Shown piece by piece: positions 27,561 to 37,821 of a DNA stretch of 37,996 nt. The position numbers were made by a program, and so were the translations under genes. Source of the DNA: Rothia terrae (GTDB lineage Bacteria > Actinomycetota > Actinomycetes > Actinomycetales > Micrococcaceae); assembly GCF_012396615.1 (NCBI RefSeq), contig NZ_JAAXPV010000022.1, positions 1 to 37,996 of the forward strand, in the 5' to 3' direction. Each line of letters begins with the position of its first letter. Position 1 is the first letter of the stretch. Below the pieces are notes generated by a model. That model did no database searches, was not told the DNA's origin, and saw only the letters and a list, made by a program, of their open reading frames with translations.

Positions 27561-30368
27561 CTACTCACTGACGTGCAGGATGCCCTTGGCGCCGCGCTCT
27601 CCTTCTGCGAAGTCGTGGTTGATGAAGGCGTAGTTGCCGGGTTCTAGCATTTCCATTTCGACGAAGCCTCCTTGGGCTGCCGACAGATCGAGTGCTTGCG
27701 CGTGACCTGCTGTGCCGAAGGCGTCCTGCCCGTTCTTCAAGGAGTAGGCGCCTTCTTTATAGACGGTGTCGAATTGGCTGCCGACCACGTGAAAGCTGGT
27801 GCCTTTAGAGGGGCCTGCAGCGAGCACCCACATGCGGACGCGGTCGCCGACTTTCGCCTGCAGTGGCTGGTAGATGTACTGGTTGGCGTAGCCGTTGAAC
27901 ATGGTCAGCGTGGGTGTGCCTGCTGAGATGCCTTCGGGTGAGACGTCTGCCAGCATGTTGCCGTTGTCTGCTTTTTCGCCGGTGTCGGTGAGGTAGGTGT
28001 CGTTTTGCACGAGCACGTATTCACGGTCGACGGGTTGCAGGTCTTCGGGTTCGATGATGACGGCGCCGAACATTCCCGCTGCCATGTGTGAGCTCATAGG
28101 CATGGATGAGCAGTGGTACAGCCACATGCCTGCGCCGCGCGCCTCAAAACGGTAGGTGAGGGATTCGCCGGGTGCGATGGTTTTCATCACCGGGTCGGGT
28201 GAGACCATGCCCGCGTGGAAGTCCAGCGAGTGCCCCATGGTGCCTTTGTTGACCAGTGTGATTTCGAAAATGTCGCCGACCTTGCCGCGTAGCGTCGGGC
28301 CCATGTACTTGCCGTTGTAGGTCATGGCGTTGATGCTGGTGCCCGGTGCAATTTCTTGTTGCAGTTCTTCCACGTTGAAGGTTTCGCGGTGGATGGTGGC
28401 GCCGTCTTCAATCTCGCTTTCGTCGATGGGTGCTAGGGACGCGTCGCGCGCCTCAAAACCTTCGGGTGCGGTGGCGAGGTCGATGTCGCTGGATTTCATG
28501 GTGGCGGAGTCGGCAGTGCCGTGCCTCATGGCGTCGTGGTTCATTGAACCGGATGAGGCTGAGTCAGCGCTGTCGCCGTCGGTAGCGATCACGTGAAAGT
28601 TCATGCCCATTGCTTTGTGCCCGACGATTGAGCACCAGCCTTCGAGGTTTCCGTCGATGATGCCGACGTCCACGCTGGCGGTTTGGCCCGGGTCGATGCG
28701 TCCGGTTTCGGTGCCGTTTTCGAAGGCGAGGTCGTGCACGGTGCCGGTGTCTGTGTTCTTGACTTCGACCATCAGGCGATTGCCGACGGGGACTTCAACG
28801 GTGTCGGGGGTAAAGCGCATGTCGCTGGTGGCTTCTATTTGAACGGTGGTTGTTTCGCCGGTTGCTTGCACGCTGGATGCTTGTGTGCTTCCGGGTAGGC
28901 GCACTGCTGCGGGGTCTGCGATGAAGCCGAGGAGGGTAACGAGTGCAACGGCTGCCGCGCCGATTGCCATGTTGCGACGGTGGCACGCCGGGGCGGGGGT
29001 TAGTGCCTCGGGGTCGGGTTTGGGTGCCTCGCCACGTGAGCGTGCCAGGATCATTTCTTTGCGCTTGGCAACGGATGCTTTGACTCCGCGAAGCATGAGC
29101 GGAACAAACGCGAAGAGTGTGAAGGCGCCGAGTAAGGACGTGGTAGTGCGAATCCACGAACCCGTCCAGTTGGCGGGGAGAACAAAGAGCAGTAGGCACA
29201 GGTTGACCATGAGCACGCGTCCTGCAGCGAACCTGTTGAACTCTTTGTTGGCGGCGCGCACTGCTGCCGGCCCGCCACCCATGCGTGCGGGAAGCAGGTA
29301 CGACATAGCACCGAGGAGAACCTGGACTAAGAAGCCCACCGTGTACATGGGGGTGGCGGTGCGCAGGTTGAGCGACGGGAAATCGTGGGTTGCAACCAGG
29401 GTGGCGGCTGTCAGCACACCGATAATAAACCACGCAAAACCTGCTGCCACCGACATGGTTGCGAACTCGGTCGGCTTCTTGGTTACACAGGTGCGAATCA
29501 TTAGATAGGCAACCAGGCAGAGCGCGAGAGCGTACAGAACAAGACCGGTAACGGCGACAAAACGCCAACCGGCAAGTGCGCCGAGAACCGTCACCGCAAT
29601 GCCCGCACTCATGATGTACAGCGCGCGTTGAGAGGTGCCGACGGCGTCCGGCATCATCTTTGTACGTAGCATGGTGGGCCACAGCGTCATAAGCGTTCCC
29701 ACCACGGTGAAGCCGACAAAGCCCAGAACGTTGACTGCCTCGTGAGCTAGCAGAAAACGGGAGTGCCACTGGCTACTCAGACCCGCCGCGAGAGTTGCAC
29801 CGAATGCTGCACCGATCGGTAGCAACCAGGACGCTGCGATGTAGAAGTGAATAGTCGACTGAAAGCGCGCGGGGAGGGCTTGCTTGACCTGTTTGAGCAG
29901 TGAATAGCCGTGCCAGGCGACCATAAGCCCGACGCCCGTGGAACCCACAAGTGTCACCGGGAAGAGGTTGAAAATGACGCCGACCATCATGGTGACAATC
30001 GAGGCATTGAGTAGGTAGATGCGACGAATCTGCTCACCGCGCGCCGAATCGGGCAGACGGTTTTTCAGCAGTGCCTCGGTGAAGTGCTGGCTCCACACCA
30101 AAATGGAGTTGGTGATCAGCCCTAGGGTAATCATGTGCACCATGAGCCACAAGGACTCGGGAATCCAGCGGTGCGTCATGAGCACTACAAAGAGCGCCAT
30201 CATCCATACGCTCACCGGCTTGGATGCCTTGCGGTGCCAGGTGGCGCGTCCTGTTGCTTTATCGCGTGCCTGTTTGTCGCTGACCGGCTGGCCGGGCGCG
30301 TGGACAGGCTTGTGCCCGATGCTACCTATAGAGACGGAGCGTCGCTGGGGATTAGGGGAGTCGGGCAC
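27561..30368 (-). CDS. nirK: Fusion of polytopic membrane domain, blue-copper domain and NirK-type copper nitrite reductase
   Basis: A 935-aa protein in four parts. Residues 52-430: about 10-12 membrane helices with several His (NnrS/heme-protein-like in look). 465-485: another helix. 495-597: a cupredoxin with type-1 copper ligands H545, C579, H584 and M587 or M589. 605-625: a His/Met-rich linker. 640-935: a two-domain NirK with type-1 ligands H713, C753, H761, M766; type-2 ligands H718, H752, H918; and active-site D716 and H860. All key residues of copper nitrite reductase (nitrite to NO) are present, so it is not merely a laccase-like multicopper oxidase. The catalytic part should face outward. 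Electrons could flow from the membrane part through the blue-copper domain (inference). It stands alone. Confidence 0.9.
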   Translation of the reverse strand: MPDSPNPQRRSVSIGSIGHKPVHAPGQPVSDKQARDKATGRATWHRKASKPVSVWMMALFVVLMTHRWIPESLWLMVHMITLGLITNSILVWSQHFTEALLKNRLPDSARGEQIRRIYLLNASIVTMMVGVIFNLFPVTLVGSTGVGLMVAWHGYSLLKQVKQALPARFQSTIHFYIAASWLLPIGAAFGATLAAGLSSQWHSRFLLAHEAVNVLGFVGFTVVGTLMTLWPTMLRTKMMPDAVGTSQRALYIMSAGIAVTVLGALAGWRFVAVTGLVLYALALCLVAYLMIRTCVTKKPTEFATMSVAAGFAWFIIGVLTAATLVATHDFPSLNLRTATPMYTVGFLVQVLLGAMSYLLPARMGGGPAAVRAANKEFNRFAAGRVLMVNLCLLLFVLPANWTGSWIRTTTSLLGAFTLFAFVPLMLRGVKASVAKRKEMILARSRGEAPKPDPEALTPAPACHRRNMAIGAAAVALVTLLGFIADPAAVRLPGSTQASSVQATGETTTVQIEATSDMRFTPDTVEVPVGNRLMVEVKNTDTGTVHDLAFENGTETGRIDPGQTASVDVGIIDGNLEGWCSIVGHKAMGMNFHVIATDGDSADSASSGSMNHDAMRHGTADSATMKSSDIDLATAPEGFEARDASLAPIDESEIEDGATIHRETFNVEELQQEIAPGTSINAMTYNGKYMGPTLRGKVGDIFEITLVNKGTMGHSLDFHAGMVSPDPVMKTIAPGESLTYRFEARGAGMWLYHCSSMPMSSHMAAGMFGAVIIEPEDLQPVDREYVLVQNDTYLTDTGEKADNGNMLADVSPEGISAGTPTLTMFNGYANQYIYQPLQAKVGDRVRMWVLAAGPSKGTSFHVVGSQFDTVYKEGAYSLKNGQDAFGTAGHAQALDLSAAQGGFVEMEMLEPGNYAFINHDFAEGERGAKGILHVSE

Positions 30369-32958: not shown

Positions 32959-33020
32959 GTGACCACAAAAGCGTCAAAATACCCCCACTTTTCGGAGTAT
33001 TTTGACGCTTTCGTGGTCAC
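32959..33020. terminator. 24-bp-arm inverted repeat between convergent operons
   Basis: Arms 32959-32982 and 32997-33020 with one mismatch and a 14-nt loop; a further GTGACCACA half lies at 32940. It separates the GT87 gene (plus) from the minus-strand ATPase operon and probably ends transcription from both sides. Confidence 0.75.
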
Positions 33021-33097
33021 TGTGCGTTAGAGCAGGGCTACGCGACGCTGGTTCCCAGTAGACTGGAATCAGGCTAGAACACTGTGAAAAGAGTGAC

Positions 33098-33352
33098 TCA
33101 TCTACTTGATAGATAATTTGCGTAGTTCTGTAATCTGTTTGCTGTCTTCTTCAAATCACCAGAAATCGAAACAATTCGCCCGGACAAGCTGTGCGTTGCT
33201 CTTGCTTCGCCGCCTGTTCCGACAGGAACCTGACTCAATGCCCTATAAGCTGACTCTATTTCATGGTTCACGGAGCTTTCGTTAACCGACACTTTGAGGA
33301 TGTCTCCTGCAAGCAAACGGATATGCTCAGCGAGTCTAATAATCTGACTCAT
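33098..33352 (-). CDS. Small helical protein of the ATPase operon (84 aa)
   Basis: Starts at ATG 33352, overlapping the preceding gene by 17 nt (a longer form from 33382 is possible). Helix-rich, no Cys or Trp: SQIIRLAEHIRLLAGDILKV, then SVNESSVNHEIESAYRALSQ, a Gly-containing turn (VPVGTGGEA) and a final helix SISGDLKKTANRLQNYANYL. The middle part can be aligned with the IGGSAQ region of the two upstream proteins, so it is probably a third, diverged member. Function unknown; the last gene of the operon. Confidence 0.65.
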   Translation of the reverse strand: MSQIIRLAEHIRLLAGDILKVSVNESSVNHEIESAYRALSQVPVGTGGEARATHSLSGRIVSISGDLKKTANRLQNYANYLSSR

Positions 33353-33719
33353 AATAAGCGTAATGCTCCCTTCTAGCTGCATCCTCTAGCTGATAGAGCT
33401 CCTCAATCTTTTTCTCGTAATAGGTGATAGCAGCTTCAGTCGCACTAAATATGCTGTTGATTTCATGAGAAACCGAGTTTATGTCTCGGCTGGCATCGTG
33501 CAATACATTTATAACCTCGTGGTCAACCCGTTGCGCAGAGCCACCAATGATGGAAGGTAAGAGTCCCGCGATAAAAACGCTTTTCTTACCTATCAGGTTA
33601 GCTTCTCGTTGCGCATTGCTCAGGTGCTTGAGGGCTATTTTAGAGAGTCGAATACCCTCCCTATAGTCTTCAATCTCTTGAGTGTATTGCGGTGTATACG
33701 GAGGTGCTGTGGGGGACAT
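33336..33719 (-). CDS. IGGSAQ-motif helical protein (127 aa), WXG100-like
   Basis: Starts directly after the stop of the 88-aa gene. Two long helices: about 12-55 (with SKIALKHLSNAQREANLIGK) and 62-120. Between them lies SIIGGSAQ (56-63), followed by RVDHEVINVLHDASRDINSV. The 88-aa protein has VIGGSAQKKDRDVTNAFEDARREL, so the two are paralogues. Helix - Gly-Gly-Ser turn - helix with about 40 residues each side is the layout of WXG100 proteins, with Ile in place of Trp. A Tyr-rich C-terminal tail (YELYQLE..HYAYYESDY) could be a recognition signal. Homology to WXG100 is suggested, not shown. Confidence 0.75.
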   Translation of the reverse strand: MSPTAPPYTPQYTQEIEDYREGIRLSKIALKHLSNAQREANLIGKKSVFIAGLLPSIIGGSAQRVDHEVINVLHDASRDINSVSHEINSIFSATEAAITYYEKKIEELYQLEDAARREHYAYYESDY

Positions 33720-33986
33720 TTAGATAGAGCGACCGTACTTGCGGGCTATCTCAGCGGCATAATTGAGGGCTTCAACCGCTTCGCGTAGTTCACGTCGCGC
33801 GTCCTCAAAAGCGTTGGTGACATCCCTATCTTTCTTTTGTGCTGAACCGCCGATTACTCGGTTAATCTCATCGATCTGTCGATTAAACTCGCGTTCAAAA
33901 TTTGAAAGGTTTCGTCCGGTTGTTTGTGCTGCTACACCTATCCGTTCAATGCGTTCGGTGAGTCGCTGGAGTTCTGAGTATGCCAT
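33720..33986 (-). CDS. IGGSAQ-motif helical protein (88 aa), WXG100-like
   Basis: AAAGGGGAG lies 6 nt before the ATG at 33986. The 88-aa product is two amphipathic helices, SELQRLTERIERIGVAAQTTGRNLSNFEREFNRQI (4-38) and DRDVTNAFEDARRELREAVEALNYAAEIARKYG (53-85), joined by VIGGSAQ (44-50). Length and layout match ESAT-6/WXG100 secreted dimers, whose turn reads WxG followed by Ser/Ala; here the Trp is Ile. No signal peptide. It lies within a run of minus-strand genes behind an FtsK/SpoIIIE ATPase, the partner class of WXG proteins. Confidence 0.75.
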   Translation of the reverse strand: MAYSELQRLTERIERIGVAAQTTGRNLSNFEREFNRQIDEINRVIGGSAQKKDRDVTNAFEDARRELREAVEALNYAAEIARKYGRSI

Positions 33987-33998
33987 GGATGCTCCCCT

Positions 33999-34538
33999 TT
34001 AATATACGGCGATAATGAGAAAGATTATTGAAATTAGAATGCATAAAATCCAAGCAGCAAATTTCACATCAATTTTGTTTGCGTTATTTTTGCGGTGTAC
34101 TTGGTGATCAGTGACTAGCTGGTTGAAAATCTGTGCATTCTGCCACCTCTGGTCAAAATCTGCTACTTCTTTTTTGTAGTAGTCAAAATTTTTACCTTTG
34201 GCCTCGGCTATTTCTTCATCAGTGAGGGTAACTTCACCTGTTTTGAACCCCTCTGACATCTGAGAGAGTTTAGATTCAAGAGAAGAGATACGTTGCTTGT
34301 GGTTGTTGAGAGTATCAATTTCTTGTTGACGGGTAGCTTGATAACCATGCACCTGGCCCTGAATCTTTGTGAGCTCATCCCTTTCGCGCTGCTTTGCATC
34401 AGAGTCTAAGCTCTGGAGTTTTTGGCGATGCTGAGATTCCAAATTAGATATTGCGTTTTGTGCCTGATTCTCTGCGGAAAGAAAATGGTGAAGCTTCTTT
34501 TGAGCATCAAGAGCATACTGTTTATTTTGTGATGGCAT
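33999..34538 (-). CDS. Tail-anchored coiled-coil protein (179 aa)
   Basis: The first 105 residues are a charged, Gln/Lys/Glu-rich coiled coil without prolines (AQKKLHHFLSAENQAQNAISNLE... and ...LNNHKQRISSLESKLSQM). Then comes a short helical section (TDEEIAEAKGKNFDYYKKEVADFDQRW) and a single C-terminal membrane helix (FAAWILCILISIIFLIIAVY, 160-179) with nothing after it, so the bulk faces the cytosol. GAGGAGAG precedes the ATG and the gap to the ATPase gene is 5 nt, so the two are cotranscribed. It may anchor the soluble ATPase to the membrane. No family recognised. Confidence 0.75.
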   Translation of the reverse strand: MPSQNKQYALDAQKKLHHFLSAENQAQNAISNLESQHRQKLQSLDSDAKQRERDELTKIQGQVHGYQATRQQEIDTLNNHKQRISSLESKLSQMSEGFKTGEVTLTDEEIAEAKGKNFDYYKKEVADFDQRWQNAQIFNQLVTDHQVHRKNNANKIDVKFAAWILCILISIIFLIIAVY

Positions 34539-34543
34539 GAATT

Positions 34544-37408
34544 CTAGCTCTCCTCAAGATTTATGGAGCCATAGGGGATGGCCGTGACTACCTGATCCGT
34601 AACACCTGGACGCGAGTACTGAAGTCGTGGGTCTCCTTCAGAGGCTTCCACACGCTCATGGAATAGTGCAGATAAATCATTGGTGCGGAGGTTTACCGCA
34701 ACGGTGCCGCCTACTGCCTCTGAGCTGTAGCCAAGAATATTGGTAATGGCGTGCGTTGACTGAATGTGGATAATGAGGTCTTTGCCTTCACTGCTGCCAT
34801 TCTCGACCAGCTCAATCAACCGTTGTTTACCGGTGGCTTGAATGCTGGAGGAGTCATCTAAGGCGTTTGCTGCACCGTCGAAACTGTGAGCAAGGGCGTC
34901 TAAAGCGTCAAGACCTGAGTCAGCATCAAGCGTCTCGCTGGAGTTAATATCGAGATTTCCCTCATTTTTGCTGAAAGCTCTATCGAGCTGATTGATGCGT
35001 TGGGCATCTTCAACAATGATGAGAGAACGGTCAGGAAGGGCATCAGATTCAGTGGCAAGCCATTGCGCGGCATCCAGATGCGCGATGGTCTGTATGTCTC
35101 CTGTGAAGCCATATTGGTGAGCGATATCAGAGAGCCAGGAATCACCGATGCAGTAGAGGTTTTGGTAGTAGCCCATCTCGGTTGCGCTGCGGATGGCACC
35201 TGCCAGAATATTTTGAGTGGTGGTGTTCTTATTGCCCACAACCATCAAAGACTGTGAAGTATTTGACTCAAAGCTGTGCGTTATGGGGGTGCTCTTTACA
35301 TCTAGCGAAGCTCCAACTAGAACCTCGCGTCGGCCCTGATAACTATCGATAACCTGAACCGGCCAGTCTGCAGGGTCTGTACCACGGAATATGTAAGGAC
35401 GCTGCATGGAGTACTGGTCTTTTCCAAGTTCCCATAGTTCAGTCTGTAGACGTTTTACAGCTTCTTTTTCTGCAAAAGTCACAGTACCGCGAACGTTGTT
35501 AGCTGGATCTTCACCGGTTTCTTGGTTAACAATCACTGCACCACGATGCTTGAGCAAAGTGGGTTCTGTGTTCCGGTCTCCTAGAATTGTCTTTGATTCA
35601 TTGACAGTGTTCTTCATAGAGATACGAATGGGTACCTGCGAGAAGATTGAATCGGCTTTTCGCTGAAGACCGTCAATACCGCTGAGGGTTTGGGTTGAGA
35701 GAACAATATGGATGCCATAGGCACGTGCTTCGCGGACGATGCGGGACAACAAATTAGTGGCTTCTTCTGCCACGGTGCTACTTCCCGCGAACATTACTTG
35801 AAACTCGTCCATGACAACAAGAAGTCGGGGGAAATCATGATGGCCCTTGGCGCGGTATTCGTCGTAGCTTGAGGCTCCAACCCGTTTGAAAACACGACTT
35901 CTGTTCTGGAATTGCTGGTAGAGATCTTCTAGCACCGAGAGCCCAAAGACTGGGTTACCTTCCAGCGCAACTACTTTTGCATGTGGTAGCCAGTTCTTGC
36001 CGTCATTACCAATAAAACGTTGGAACTCAAGACCTTCTTTGAAGTCTACGAGGTACATCTCTAGTTCGTCAGGGGAGTACTTGGCCGCTAATGAGTAGAT
36101 GAGAGATAGCAGCAAGATAGATTTACCTGAACCTGTTTGTCCTCCCACAAGTGCGAAGGGACGCGCAGGGTTTGCGCTTCTGAAATCTACGGTTAGCGGG
36201 CTGCCATCTTCTTTTTGACCGATAACAGCTTCAAGCCCTTGCGCGCTATTTGCTGCCCAGAGGGTTCCATCTGCTGGTCGCAGGTTATCGGCGCTGATAG
36301 GTTCAGGGCCGGCGTCTGCGTTTGCAAACTTAGCGATGGCCTCGACGATACTCGAAGCCGTGCCTAATGTGAAAGAGCTATCTGTAGATACTGTGTAGGT
36401 GCCGTCTTTGCTACGCCAAGTAACAGTTCCACGTTGGTTGGAGCGGTCTAGAATTACGTTGCCCGGACCGAAGTCGATTGCGGTGCCTCCGCTTTCGAGG
36501 ACTACAAAGTGTACTCCATTTTCGGGTTTGGCAATCTGAGAAATGAATTTGATAGTTCTATCATCAAGAACCTCAGGAGTGTTATCTACAACTACAACGT
36601 GCACGGTTGGTTTAGTGCGTGATTCTTCCCAGAGGTCCAAAAAGCTGTGCGCGTTTTTGCCTCGTCGTAAATCTACTAGTCGTGCTGCTTCGTGGCGGAT
36701 TTCTTCTAGGCGTTCTTCAAAAGCTCGGTTGCTCCCGGGACTAGTGAGGATGTTCTTGGGAACTTTTGCGTGGTTCTTGAGCGCGCCGAACTGACCCAGA
36801 ATTCCCTTCATATCTGGGTCGAATACTGTTACCTGTAATGCGTGAGGGTTTACTGAAGCTAATATCCTGGTGAGGATTTCTTCAGCCATGTCACGGCGTG
36901 CCTCGACACTGTCTCCATAGATAGAGATGTTTGAAGTCCCTAGAAACGGAACAATCGCTGGAGCGGATCCGCCACTGTGCTGGGCGTTTCCAATACGAAT
37001 TAAGGAACCAGGTCCTTCTGTTCGTTCAAAGTTCTGAGTGATGTCCTCAGTAAATTCTTCGGGGTCTATGCCGAGCGCGTCGGGGGCTGCTTGAGTCGCT
37101 AAGATTCGAAGCTCGCCGGCTGTTTTAGCGAATAGCTTTGCGTTGTCTGAAACTTGCTGTTCCAAAGCATCCTGGTAAGAAGCTTTCTCTTGTTGGACGG
37201 AGCGAGTAAGTTCGCTCTTCAAAGCAGCACGAAAGTTCAAGAGGGAGGATGACGCTTCGTTTTGATATTTTTCGTTTTCGCTATTTAGCTGCGCGATGCG
37301 TTGATTGGTTTTTTGGTGTTGATCGGCGCGAAATGCTCGAAACTTTGCAAGCGTATGACCAACGTCTGTTCTTAGCTTGCTTGCGTAAGGAAAGTTATTT
37401 TCAGTCAT
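34544..37408 (-). CDS. FtsK/SpoIIIE-type ATPase with three RecA-like modules (EccC/EssC-like)
   Basis: A 954-aa soluble protein. Residues 1-105: charged coiled coil. About 150-345: a RecA-like module without a P-loop (ISIYGDSVEARRDMAEEIL, VHVVVVDNTPEV). 395-640: the active FtsK domain, with Walker A GGQTGSGKS (422-430), VDFKEGLEF, Walker B LLVVMDEF (529-536) and STQTLSGIDGLQ. 700-870: a second degenerate module (VVGNKNTTTQN at 723-733, LIIVEDAQ at 796-803). One good and two degenerate modules in a chain is the plan of type VII secretion ATPases, but the N-terminal membrane helices and FHA domains of those are absent. It overlaps the upstream gene by one base (TAATG). DNA translocase is the alternative. 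Confidence 0.85.
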   Translation of the reverse strand: MTENNFPYASKLRTDVGHTLAKFRAFRADQHQKTNQRIAQLNSENEKYQNEASSSLLNFRAALKSELTRSVQQEKASYQDALEQQVSDNAKLFAKTAGELRILATQAAPDALGIDPEEFTEDITQNFERTEGPGSLIRIGNAQHSGGSAPAIVPFLGTSNISIYGDSVEARRDMAEEILTRILASVNPHALQVTVFDPDMKGILGQFGALKNHAKVPKNILTSPGSNRAFEERLEEIRHEAARLVDLRRGKNAHSFLDLWEESRTKPTVHVVVVDNTPEVLDDRTIKFISQIAKPENGVHFVVLESGGTAIDFGPGNVILDRSNQRGTVTWRSKDGTYTVSTDSSFTLGTASSIVEAIAKFANADAGPEPISADNLRPADGTLWAANSAQGLEAVIGQKEDGSPLTVDFRSANPARPFALVGGQTGSGKSILLLSLIYSLAAKYSPDELEMYLVDFKEGLEFQRFIGNDGKNWLPHAKVVALEGNPVFGLSVLEDLYQQFQNRSRVFKRVGASSYDEYRAKGHHDFPRLLVVMDEFQVMFAGSSTVAEEATNLLSRIVREARAYGIHIVLSTQTLSGIDGLQRKADSIFSQVPIRISMKNTVNESKTILGDRNTEPTLLKHRGAVIVNQETGEDPANNVRGTVTFAEKEAVKRLQTELWELGKDQYSMQRPYIFRGTDPADWPVQVIDSYQGRREVLVGASLDVKSTPITHSFESNTSQSLMVVGNKNTTTQNILAGAIRSATEMGYYQNLYCIGDSWLSDIAHQYGFTGDIQTIAHLDAAQWLATESDALPDRSLIIVEDAQRINQLDRAFSKNEGNLDINSSETLDADSGLDALDALAHSFDGAANALDDSSSIQATGKQRLIELVENGSSEGKDLIIHIQSTHAITNILGYSSEAVGGTVAVNLRTNDLSALFHERVEASEGDPRLQYSRPGVTDQVVTAIPYGSINLEES

Positions 37409-37821
37409 TACAAACTCCTGGCCTTAGCGGAACGACCAATCCAAATAAAGAGGGGGATGAAGAGAAGTGTCCAGAGGCGAACGTCAGATGAGAACATGCC
37501 TAGGATATTGAGCCAACCGATGATCTTTGTAACTGTTATCAACCATTTTGGAATGGGGAGGGTCAAGAGCGAGTGTAGGACTAGCTGGACGAATAAATGC
37601 AAAGCCGCATTCACGTTGGTGTAGCTGGGAGCAAGCATGCCAAAGAAGGTGTACGAGCCAAGAGAGGAAGAAACGAGATAAATGAGAACGGCAGTGAGAG
37701 CTATCTGTATGAGACTTGTGGTGCTAACTCGTAAACTGATTTTGTTTTTATCCGCGTTATACTTCTGGAAATACTTAATTGCGGAATTGATCTCTTTGCG
37801 TTCAGATTGAGGCTTATTCAT
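37408..37821 (-). CDS. Polytopic membrane protein of the ATPase operon (137 aa)
   Basis: First gene of the minus-strand operon. A polar N-terminus (1-30) precedes about four helices: TTSLIQIALTAVLIYLVSSS, VNAALHLFVQLVLHSLLTL, WLITVTKIIGWLNILGMF and LWTLLFIPLFIWIG, ending in a basic tail. Its stop shares a base with the ATPase start codon, so translation is coupled. It could supply the membrane part that the ATPase lacks compared with EccC/EssC (inference). No family recognised. Confidence 0.75.
   Translation of the reverse strand: MNKPQSERKEINSAIKYFQKYNADKNKISLRVSTTSLIQIALTAVLIYLVSSSLGSYTFFGMLAPSYTNVNAALHLFVQLVLHSLLTLPIPKWLITVTKIIGWLNILGMFSSDVRLWTLLFIPLFIWIGRSAKARSL

Follow-up and report, generated by a model that had tools for sequence, protein, structure and literature searches.

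A candidate divergent type VII-like operon with a soluble three-module ATPase and small hairpin proteins in Rothia terrae

Described systems and the present locus

Four sources describe the systems closest to the operon considered here, which lies on the minus strand at positions 33098 to 37821 of a stretch of 37,996 nucleotides of Rothia terrae (contig NZ_JAAXPV010000022.1; the whole stretch is called the window) and which encodes a 954-aa FtsK/SpoIIIE-type ATPase together with membrane proteins and small, presumably helical proteins. A footnote of 2012 mentions a mobile class resembling the type VII secretion system (T7SS), with three FtsK/HerA modules of which only the middle one is active, and with a solo WXG partner. 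The available parts of PMC11090510 (2024) place an EssC-like ATPase and two WXG100 proteins in type III-A CoCoNuT loci, and also in a stand-alone form that is credited to an earlier study. There, the ATPase has an N-terminal coiled coil, no transmembrane (TM) segment, and activity in its central domain only, while one of the two WXG100 proteins is without WxG; the authors argue for secretion by a different mechanism. The excerpts of PMC11217815 (2024) set out the types T7SSa to T7SSj: in each of T7SSc to T7SSj the ATPase is bound to the membrane and has four NTPase domains, and a YukD-like protein is present in most types. The passages at hand of PMC7159879 (2020) treat GTPase-centred conflict systems with HSP70, GrpE and DnaJ-TPR proteins, in which FtsK figures only as a rare effector domain predicted to be inactive.

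By its ATPase, the operon is a member of the mobile T7SS-like class, and by the features tested it is not one of T7SSa to T7SSj. With the class of the 2012 footnote, as far as that footnote goes, it shares three modules with an active middle one, small hairpin partners and mobility, whereas W-less GGS hairpins, a TM partner encoded by the next gene, and the Hsp70, J-like and GrpE proteins of some relatives are seen here only. The CoCoNuT ATPase of PMC11090510, again from the parts available, is alike in its central-only activity, its N-terminal coiled coil, its lack of TM segments, its partner without WxG and the Hsp70-like domains in the same loci; however, it sits between the vWA genes of a restriction system, whereas ours belongs to a free operon with a TM partner. 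There, an Hsp70-like domain with a proposed RNA-binding role comes fused to the restriction core or encoded together with it, in contrast to the separate Hsp70 gene, the GrpE and the J-like protein of some of our relatives; neither GrpE nor DnaJ occurs in the main text of that paper. Types T7SSa to T7SSj (PMC11217815, same excerpts) also combine an EccC/EssC-type ATPase with small hairpin proteins, but the window's ATPase is soluble, lacks the membrane-bound four-domain form of T7SSc to T7SSj (no TM segment, three modules in 954 aa), and comes from a genome in which YukD, a feature of most types, had no match at E 0.01 (the B. subtilis control matched). The GTPase-centred systems hold the same chaperone set in one operon and, unlike the present one, are built on GTPases (PMC7159879, same passages).

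In the literature searched, a scope that excluded most subscription papers, we found neither the distinctive phrasing of the 2012 footnote elsewhere, nor the family name DUF6244 (discussed below), nor any report in which this ATPase is combined with GGS hairpins or with Hsp70, J and GrpE as a free set. The first-pass annotation of this DNA had put the system forward as a candidate undescribed one. That was too much to say of the motor, since the literature of 2012 and 2024 already had ATPases of this class, active in one middle module and accompanied by WXG partners; the motor class is already known, and what remains new is the variant, no description having been found of this actinobacterial version.

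The operon, its ATPase and their clade

All six same-strand ORFs (open reading frames) of the first-pass annotation were confirmed at their positions. Read 5' to 3' along the minus strand they encode proteins of 137, 954, 179, 88, 127 and 84 aa, and the close spacing claimed for them was found: a 1-nt overlap between the 137- and 954-aa genes, then gaps of 5, 12 and 0 nt, and a 17-nt overlap of the 84-aa gene with the 127-aa gene if the start at 33352 is used (47 nt for the listed 94-aa ORF). Shine-Dalgarno-like sequences were seen by eye upstream of several starts.

The 954-aa protein (34544-37408) matches Pfam FtsK_SpoIIIE at 5.8e-23, and its profile scores, P-loop and hydropathy describe a soluble EccC/EssC-like ATPase. 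It scores 117.9 of 509 bits with the EccCa model, 89.5 of 778 with EssC and 57.4 of 347 with EccCb, all far under the curated cut-offs, including the EccC cut-off that marks T7SSa (ESX); the FtsK model gives 35.2 of 1566 bits, short of the cut-off for an FtsK DNA translocase. All eight rows of the seed alignment A1 match EccCa, EssC and EccCb, and two of the eight match FtsK. Among PDB chains, the ATPase profile finds 4nh0 (4.9e-38), EccC5 (8.6e-34) and YukB (1.2e-29) as best matches. Judged by these model scores and profile matches, the ATPase is nearer to EccC/EssC than to FtsK, and a motor for conjugation or chromosome partition was rejected on the same two grounds.

The three-module organisation proposed earlier was borne out, with only the middle module carrying a P-loop. 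An N-terminal, helical-looking stretch is followed by a degenerate module 1, the active middle module and a degenerate module 3, the outer two being recognised from the spans of the EccCa and EccCb models and from alignment A1 rather than from structure. The window's ATPase has a single P-loop (GQTGSGKS, residue 423) and a single DEF, and exactly one P-loop followed by DEF is present in 41 of the 42 family members examined (the window's included). The remaining one, L044 (6947-9868), has none, and its genome G582 has a second copy with a P-loop (L043). By hydropathy the window's ATPase contains no TM segment, even at a threshold of 1.3, and thus lacks the N-terminal TM feature of T7SSa (ESX); at 1.8, TM segments are absent from 38 of the 42 family ATPases, and four of the five Phycisphaerae members have an N-terminal part with two of them.

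A tree of the middle module was built from 41 members (L044, having no P-loop, was omitted) and two outgroup rows from the host genome, which form long branches, and was midpoint-rooted for drawing. It places the window's ATPase in a clade of 25 (support 97/97), nearest to L040, L015 and L114, with which it makes a set of four (100/100). Eight members labelled as having W-x-G or W-x-D partners, from which the window's clade stands apart, are separated from the other labelled rows by one branch (97/97); these labels and the J labels were assigned by eye from the sequences. Of the 25 clade loci, 20 have a hairpin protein (described below) matched at E<0.005; the 17 loci outside the clade have none.

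The distribution is sporadic. With the window's genome counted, the ATPase was found in 7 of 198 relatives at 1e-40, in 4 of 295 genomes of the family and 9 of 396 of the phylum at 1e-60, and in 16 of 396 of the order and 54 of 394 of the class at 1e-80, the last count possibly taking in members outside the window's clade. A scan of a viral collection found no relatives, and phage records gave 12 matches covering at best 33% of the query. Four relatives are plasmid-borne, and one of these plasmids is typed as conjugative.

Outside the clade, the gene neighbourhoods include recognisable effectors. On a Helicobacter plasmid (L023), a 340-aa protein ending in a WHH nuclease lies near the ATPase with a SUKH protein after it, which on our analysis is the layout of exported toxins. 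A gut contig encodes, besides a ThiF-like protein, one of 349 aa that begins with a weak WXG100 match (0.074) and contains an HExxH stretch. Caballeronia plasmid pSBC2-5 (L022) carries genes for a Card1-like CARF nuclease, vWA, PP2C and kinase proteins directly after the ATPase. Within the family, a ubiquitin-like module may stand beside the ATPase in loci with a ThiF-type protein (L025), a JAB protein (L049) or ThiF-like neighbours noted by eye (L048, L049). Within the window's clade, adjacent look-alike proteins of about 140 to 180 aa, recognised by eye, occur at L109:12827-14026 and L110:4897-5725 and resemble an immunity-gene array; the two that were scanned had no Pfam family. Apart from the operon, the host genome itself encodes a WXG100 protein on contig 39 (L053:8783-9073; PF06013, 9.4e-15) and, on contig 1, a 1157-aa EccC-like ATPase with two hydrophobic segments (L054:5618-9091).

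The small hairpin proteins

The 88-aa protein (33720-33986) and the 127-aa protein (33336-33719) have the IGGSAQ motif in common, as had been pointed out, and match each other as paralogues (E 6e-6). The former has 36% identity with the 87-aa protein that L015 encodes at the corresponding place (E 5e-16). AlphaFold2 predicts for it helices at 2-23, 27-46 and 52-85 and a turn at 47-51 inside the motif, with modest confidence (mean pLDDT 66, pTM 0.38, three-row alignment; the only protein modelled), and this model corresponds to the helical hairpin of about 100 residues that typifies the WXG100 superfamily. The third protein (84 aa, 33098-33352; 94 aa from the ATG at 33382) reaches only E 0.52, as the 94-aa ORF, against the hairpin family and is not clearly a member. 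Of the three helical hairpins initially proposed, the 88-aa one is predicted as such and the 84-aa one stays unassigned.

An iterated hairpin profile matched 32 of 4,536 ORFs at E<0.005, in 20 of the 42 loci. Built from the same loci, the profile measures specificity and cannot count as independent detection, and its threshold is blurred, L120 being in at 0.0045 and L045, outside the clade, out at 0.0052. The great majority of the matches (29) lie on the strand of the ATPase, 0 to 4.3 kb away; the remaining three belong, it seems, to a second half-operon of L040, on the opposite strand and at the far end of the contig. In the alignment of 20 hairpins (A8), G47 is the only nearly invariant column, mostly followed by S, and it falls at the predicted turn of the 88-aa protein. 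None of the 20 has W two residues before this G, the window reading I-G-G-S; with regard to the solo WXG partner of the 2012 class the results point both ways. The conserved glycine presumably aligns with the G of the WXG motif in ESAT-6. Searched against PDB, the 20-row profile has two ESAT-6 chains as its best natural matches (2.9e-4 and 3.2e-4; residues 11-81 aligned with 11-81 and 10-80, respectively).

DUF6244 (PF19757), a Pfam family of unknown function, is matched by four of the 20 hairpins in A8 (best 2.1e-27) but not by the window's 88-aa protein. By eye, the hairpins of L043, L117, L118, L120, L121 and L123 are of DUF6244 type.

Membrane proteins and chaperones

The prediction of a tail-anchored, coiled-coil-like protein after the ATPase agrees with hydropathy, which gives the 179-aa protein (33999-34538) a single hydrophobic segment, at residues 160-178 of its C-terminus. 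We propose that it is the membrane partner of the ATPase. In 19 of the 24 clade loci with sequence there, the ORF after the ATPase adds TM helices beyond the ATPase stop; L121, L042, L113, L016 and L018 have no such ORF, and L041, whose contig ends at the ATPase, was excluded from the count. The call for this next ORF reaches more than 500 nt back over the ATPase in L043, L120, L116, L020, L111, L114 and L110, which leaves its true start unsure. Homology of the 179-aa protein to the N-terminus of a Phycisphaerae ATPase, suggested by a single weak coiled-coil match (E 0.001 without composition correction), was not accepted. L020, L111 and L112 have near-identical ATPases and the TM partner; by eye, a helicase-like gene lies next to the ATPase, and the stretch retrieved contains no hairpin match.

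The 137-aa protein (37408-37821) is polytopic as first described, with two hydrophobic segments if the mean-hydropathy threshold is 1.6 and four if it is 1.3, and has no Pfam family above cut-off. Its gene takes the place that, in several relatives, belongs to a gene for a TM protein with a J-like region. A J region in the 137-aa ORF itself was considered and homology not accepted, the alignment with the 209-aa TM protein of L015 being 28% identical but gappy.

Such J-like TM proteins were found in seven loci (L015, L021, L041, L042, L110, L113 and L115), all seven with TM segments. The Pfam J domain is above cut-off in L021 only (1.3e-8) and weak in L113 (0.022); L041, L042 and L110 were assigned by phmmer similarity to L021, and L015 and L115 by eye. 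Four loci encode Hsp70 (L021, L041, L042 and L115; in L041 incompletely, at the start of a contig), the first three also GrpE, while L109 has a protein with the DnaJ-C28 conserved domain (2.7e-23). All chaperone-bearing loci belong to the window's clade. A dedicated Hsp70 elsewhere in the host genome was sought and rejected, as the sole match (46% identical, contig 8) is probably the housekeeping DnaK.

Insertion-sequence end and acquisition

The operon abuts what is probably the end of an insertion sequence (IS), as had been suspected: a multi-copy repeat begins at 37808 and runs to the contig boundary at 37996, with 30 matches in the 41-contig genome, 11 of which start within the first 50 bases of a contig. 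The 137-aa ORF, from its ATG at 37821 through 37808 (four whole codons), starts inside this repeat; its annotated start is therefore IS sequence, and the first gene is probably truncated at its 5' end. Since the IS end cuts the operon on its upstream side, upstream genes known from relatives may be absent here or sit past the gap.

The operon had also been described as more AT-rich than its surroundings. The dip is clear, with a GC content of 0.445-0.505 in 1-kb windows over 33001-37500, but not unique in kind: among the 65 preceding windows, 12 are below 0.53 and five below 0.505, the lowest being 0.478. None of the 34 other genomes of the genus (G001-G034) is among the ATPase matches of the 1e-40 search of relatives or the 1e-60 search of the family; 20 of them are named as searched without match, and the other 14 are presumably among the 198. 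The absence from congeners, together with the low GC, supports the earlier suggestion of gain by transfer, and the operon was probably acquired in this way, although none of six congener loci compared showed an exact empty site. Of these, L145 and L146 keep a three-gene block ending in the GT87 glycosyltransferase gene, after which other genes follow, L149 keeps two of the three block genes, and L144 and L148 keep GT87 alone; L147 gave no match because the ORF picker missed its GT87 gene. In the window, the GT87 gene (2.4e-44) is convergent with the operon, and 34 of the 35 genomes of the genus, counting the window's own, have it. Between the two lies a 27-nt inverted repeat (32959-33020; 93%, 8-nt loop) that folds at -48.2 kcal/mol (z -12.65) and is probably a two-way terminator separating two convergent transcription units. 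Further away, at 27561-30368, a 935-aa ORF combines, by eye, a multicopper-type C-terminus with a polytopic membrane part.

Interpretation

Our interpretation starts from what was observed: the gene content, the one P-loop, the ATPase clade, the linkage with hairpins, TM partner and chaperones, and the sporadic distribution. On this basis the operon could be a stripped-down, laterally moving, type VII-like motor for handling proteins, a reading to which we give roughly an even chance. The soluble ATPase would form a ring in which ATP is burned by the middle module only, and would be held at the membrane by the tail-anchored 179-aa protein, perhaps also by the 137-aa protein, such anchoring in trans replacing the own TM helices of EccC and EssC. 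The IGGSAQ hairpins would play the part of WXG100-like adaptors or substrates that the ATPase recognises; they may travel into or across the membrane by themselves or with effectors whose genes lie elsewhere, and their deployment would serve competition or defence. A J-like membrane protein, acting with Hsp70 and GrpE, might prepare or deliver the substrate in some relatives. A bolder version, which we consider unlikely, would make the whole clade an Hsp70-coupled export motor, in which unfolded substrates tagged with hairpins are passed by the J-like/TPR membrane protein, Hsp70 and GrpE to a soluble, trans-anchored EccC-like ring, mirroring the Hsp70 import motor of mitochondria, and in which W-less hairpins, including DUF6244, are the adaptors. 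As to function, export is best supported, by analogy and with roughly an even chance, and the chief rival is an intracellular immune role.

Several results weigh against a type VII-like export motor. No EccB/EccD-type protein is encoded in the operon. This part of the first-pass annotation holds in that none of the six proteins matches the EccB, EccD or YukD family; a search of the genome with an EccB profile (0 matches) was uninformative, since the control likewise gave no match. Pfam WXG100 matches none of the window's three small proteins and only two of the 20 hairpins, weakly (best 0.011), and hhalign of the hairpins against six W-x-G/W-x-D proteins gave no signal in two comparisons (probability 1.7% and 2.3%). 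The PDB search of the hairpin profile favours any coiled coil: a designed one (5.5e-6) tops the list of the 20-row profile above ESAT-6, and with an 11-row profile designs and a keratin chain (0.0032) rank above ESAT-6 (0.011). The retrieved stretches of 21 of the 25 clade loci contain no Hsp70, and HPD is present in the first 140 residues of none of the seven J-like proteins, which makes classical stimulation of Hsp70 doubtful. Neither the window's operon nor the scanned proteins of the clade yielded a recognisable toxin or immunity domain, and the window's copy is cut at its upstream end by the IS. The label WXG-like thus finds agreement in the 88-aa model and in ESAT-6 as best natural PDB match, little in Pfam and none in hhalign; homology of the hairpins to WXG100 is tentative. 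Likewise, the proposal of a divergent type VII relative is partly upheld by the EccC/EssC-like ATPase, the supported clade and the hairpins within it.

Alternatively, infection may bring the ATPase, the hairpins and the membrane coiled-coil protein together at the membrane, where they would kill the cell or protect it with no export involved; this is possible if somewhat doubtful. Such an intracellular immune module would suit an ATPase without TM helices, an operon without a channel protein, a sporadic distribution and the conflict-type regulators of family loci (Hsp70/GrpE/TPR, vWA, kinase, PP2C, Card1-like nuclease, JAB and ThiF-type proteins). As far as the consulted parts of both papers go, similar chaperone and kinase/PP2C/vWA themes accompany a GTPase in the conflict systems of PMC7159879, and the same ATPase class sits inside restriction loci (PMC11090510). 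The middle module also scores with the PADLOC models SspH (1.3e-24) and mad8 (9.6e-20); however, these matches span the ATPase domain only, on which ground a known defence system was rejected. Moreover, no known defence effector was seen in the window's clade, the pairing of a hairpin with such an ATPase is the signature of secretion, and the WHH nuclease and SUKH pair of L023 has the layout of an exported toxin. A machine for moving DNA in plasmid transfer or partition, with the helical proteins as accessories, is highly improbable: the ATPase belongs to the FtsK/SpoIIIE superfamily and has relatives on the four plasmids, the conjugative one among them, but the FtsK model reaches 35 of 1566 bits against 118 for EccCa, EccC/EssC chains lead the PDB matches, and no relaxase is found among the annotated products of the four plasmid stretches (no relaxase profile search was made). 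Lastly, the window's copy may be a decayed remnant, broken or silenced by the upstream IS, given that the 137-aa ORF starts in IS sequence and that the sole genomic Hsp70 match lies on another contig. This seems improbable, as the five downstream ORFs are open, with catalytic motifs kept and Shine-Dalgarno-like sequences at several starts; furthermore, IS elements can supply promoters.

Significance

A class known from a footnote is here delimited as a clade whose parts can be named: a soluble motor in which one module is active, a proposed trans-acting membrane partner, W-less hairpins and, in some loci, chaperones. DUF6244 gains a genomic context from its neighbourhood with the ATPase. Profile-matching ATPases are not rare across the wider class, and a system this small, in an operon without an EccB/EccD-type gene, would make a type VII question testable, namely what the ATPase needs beyond a membrane tether and a hairpin substrate.
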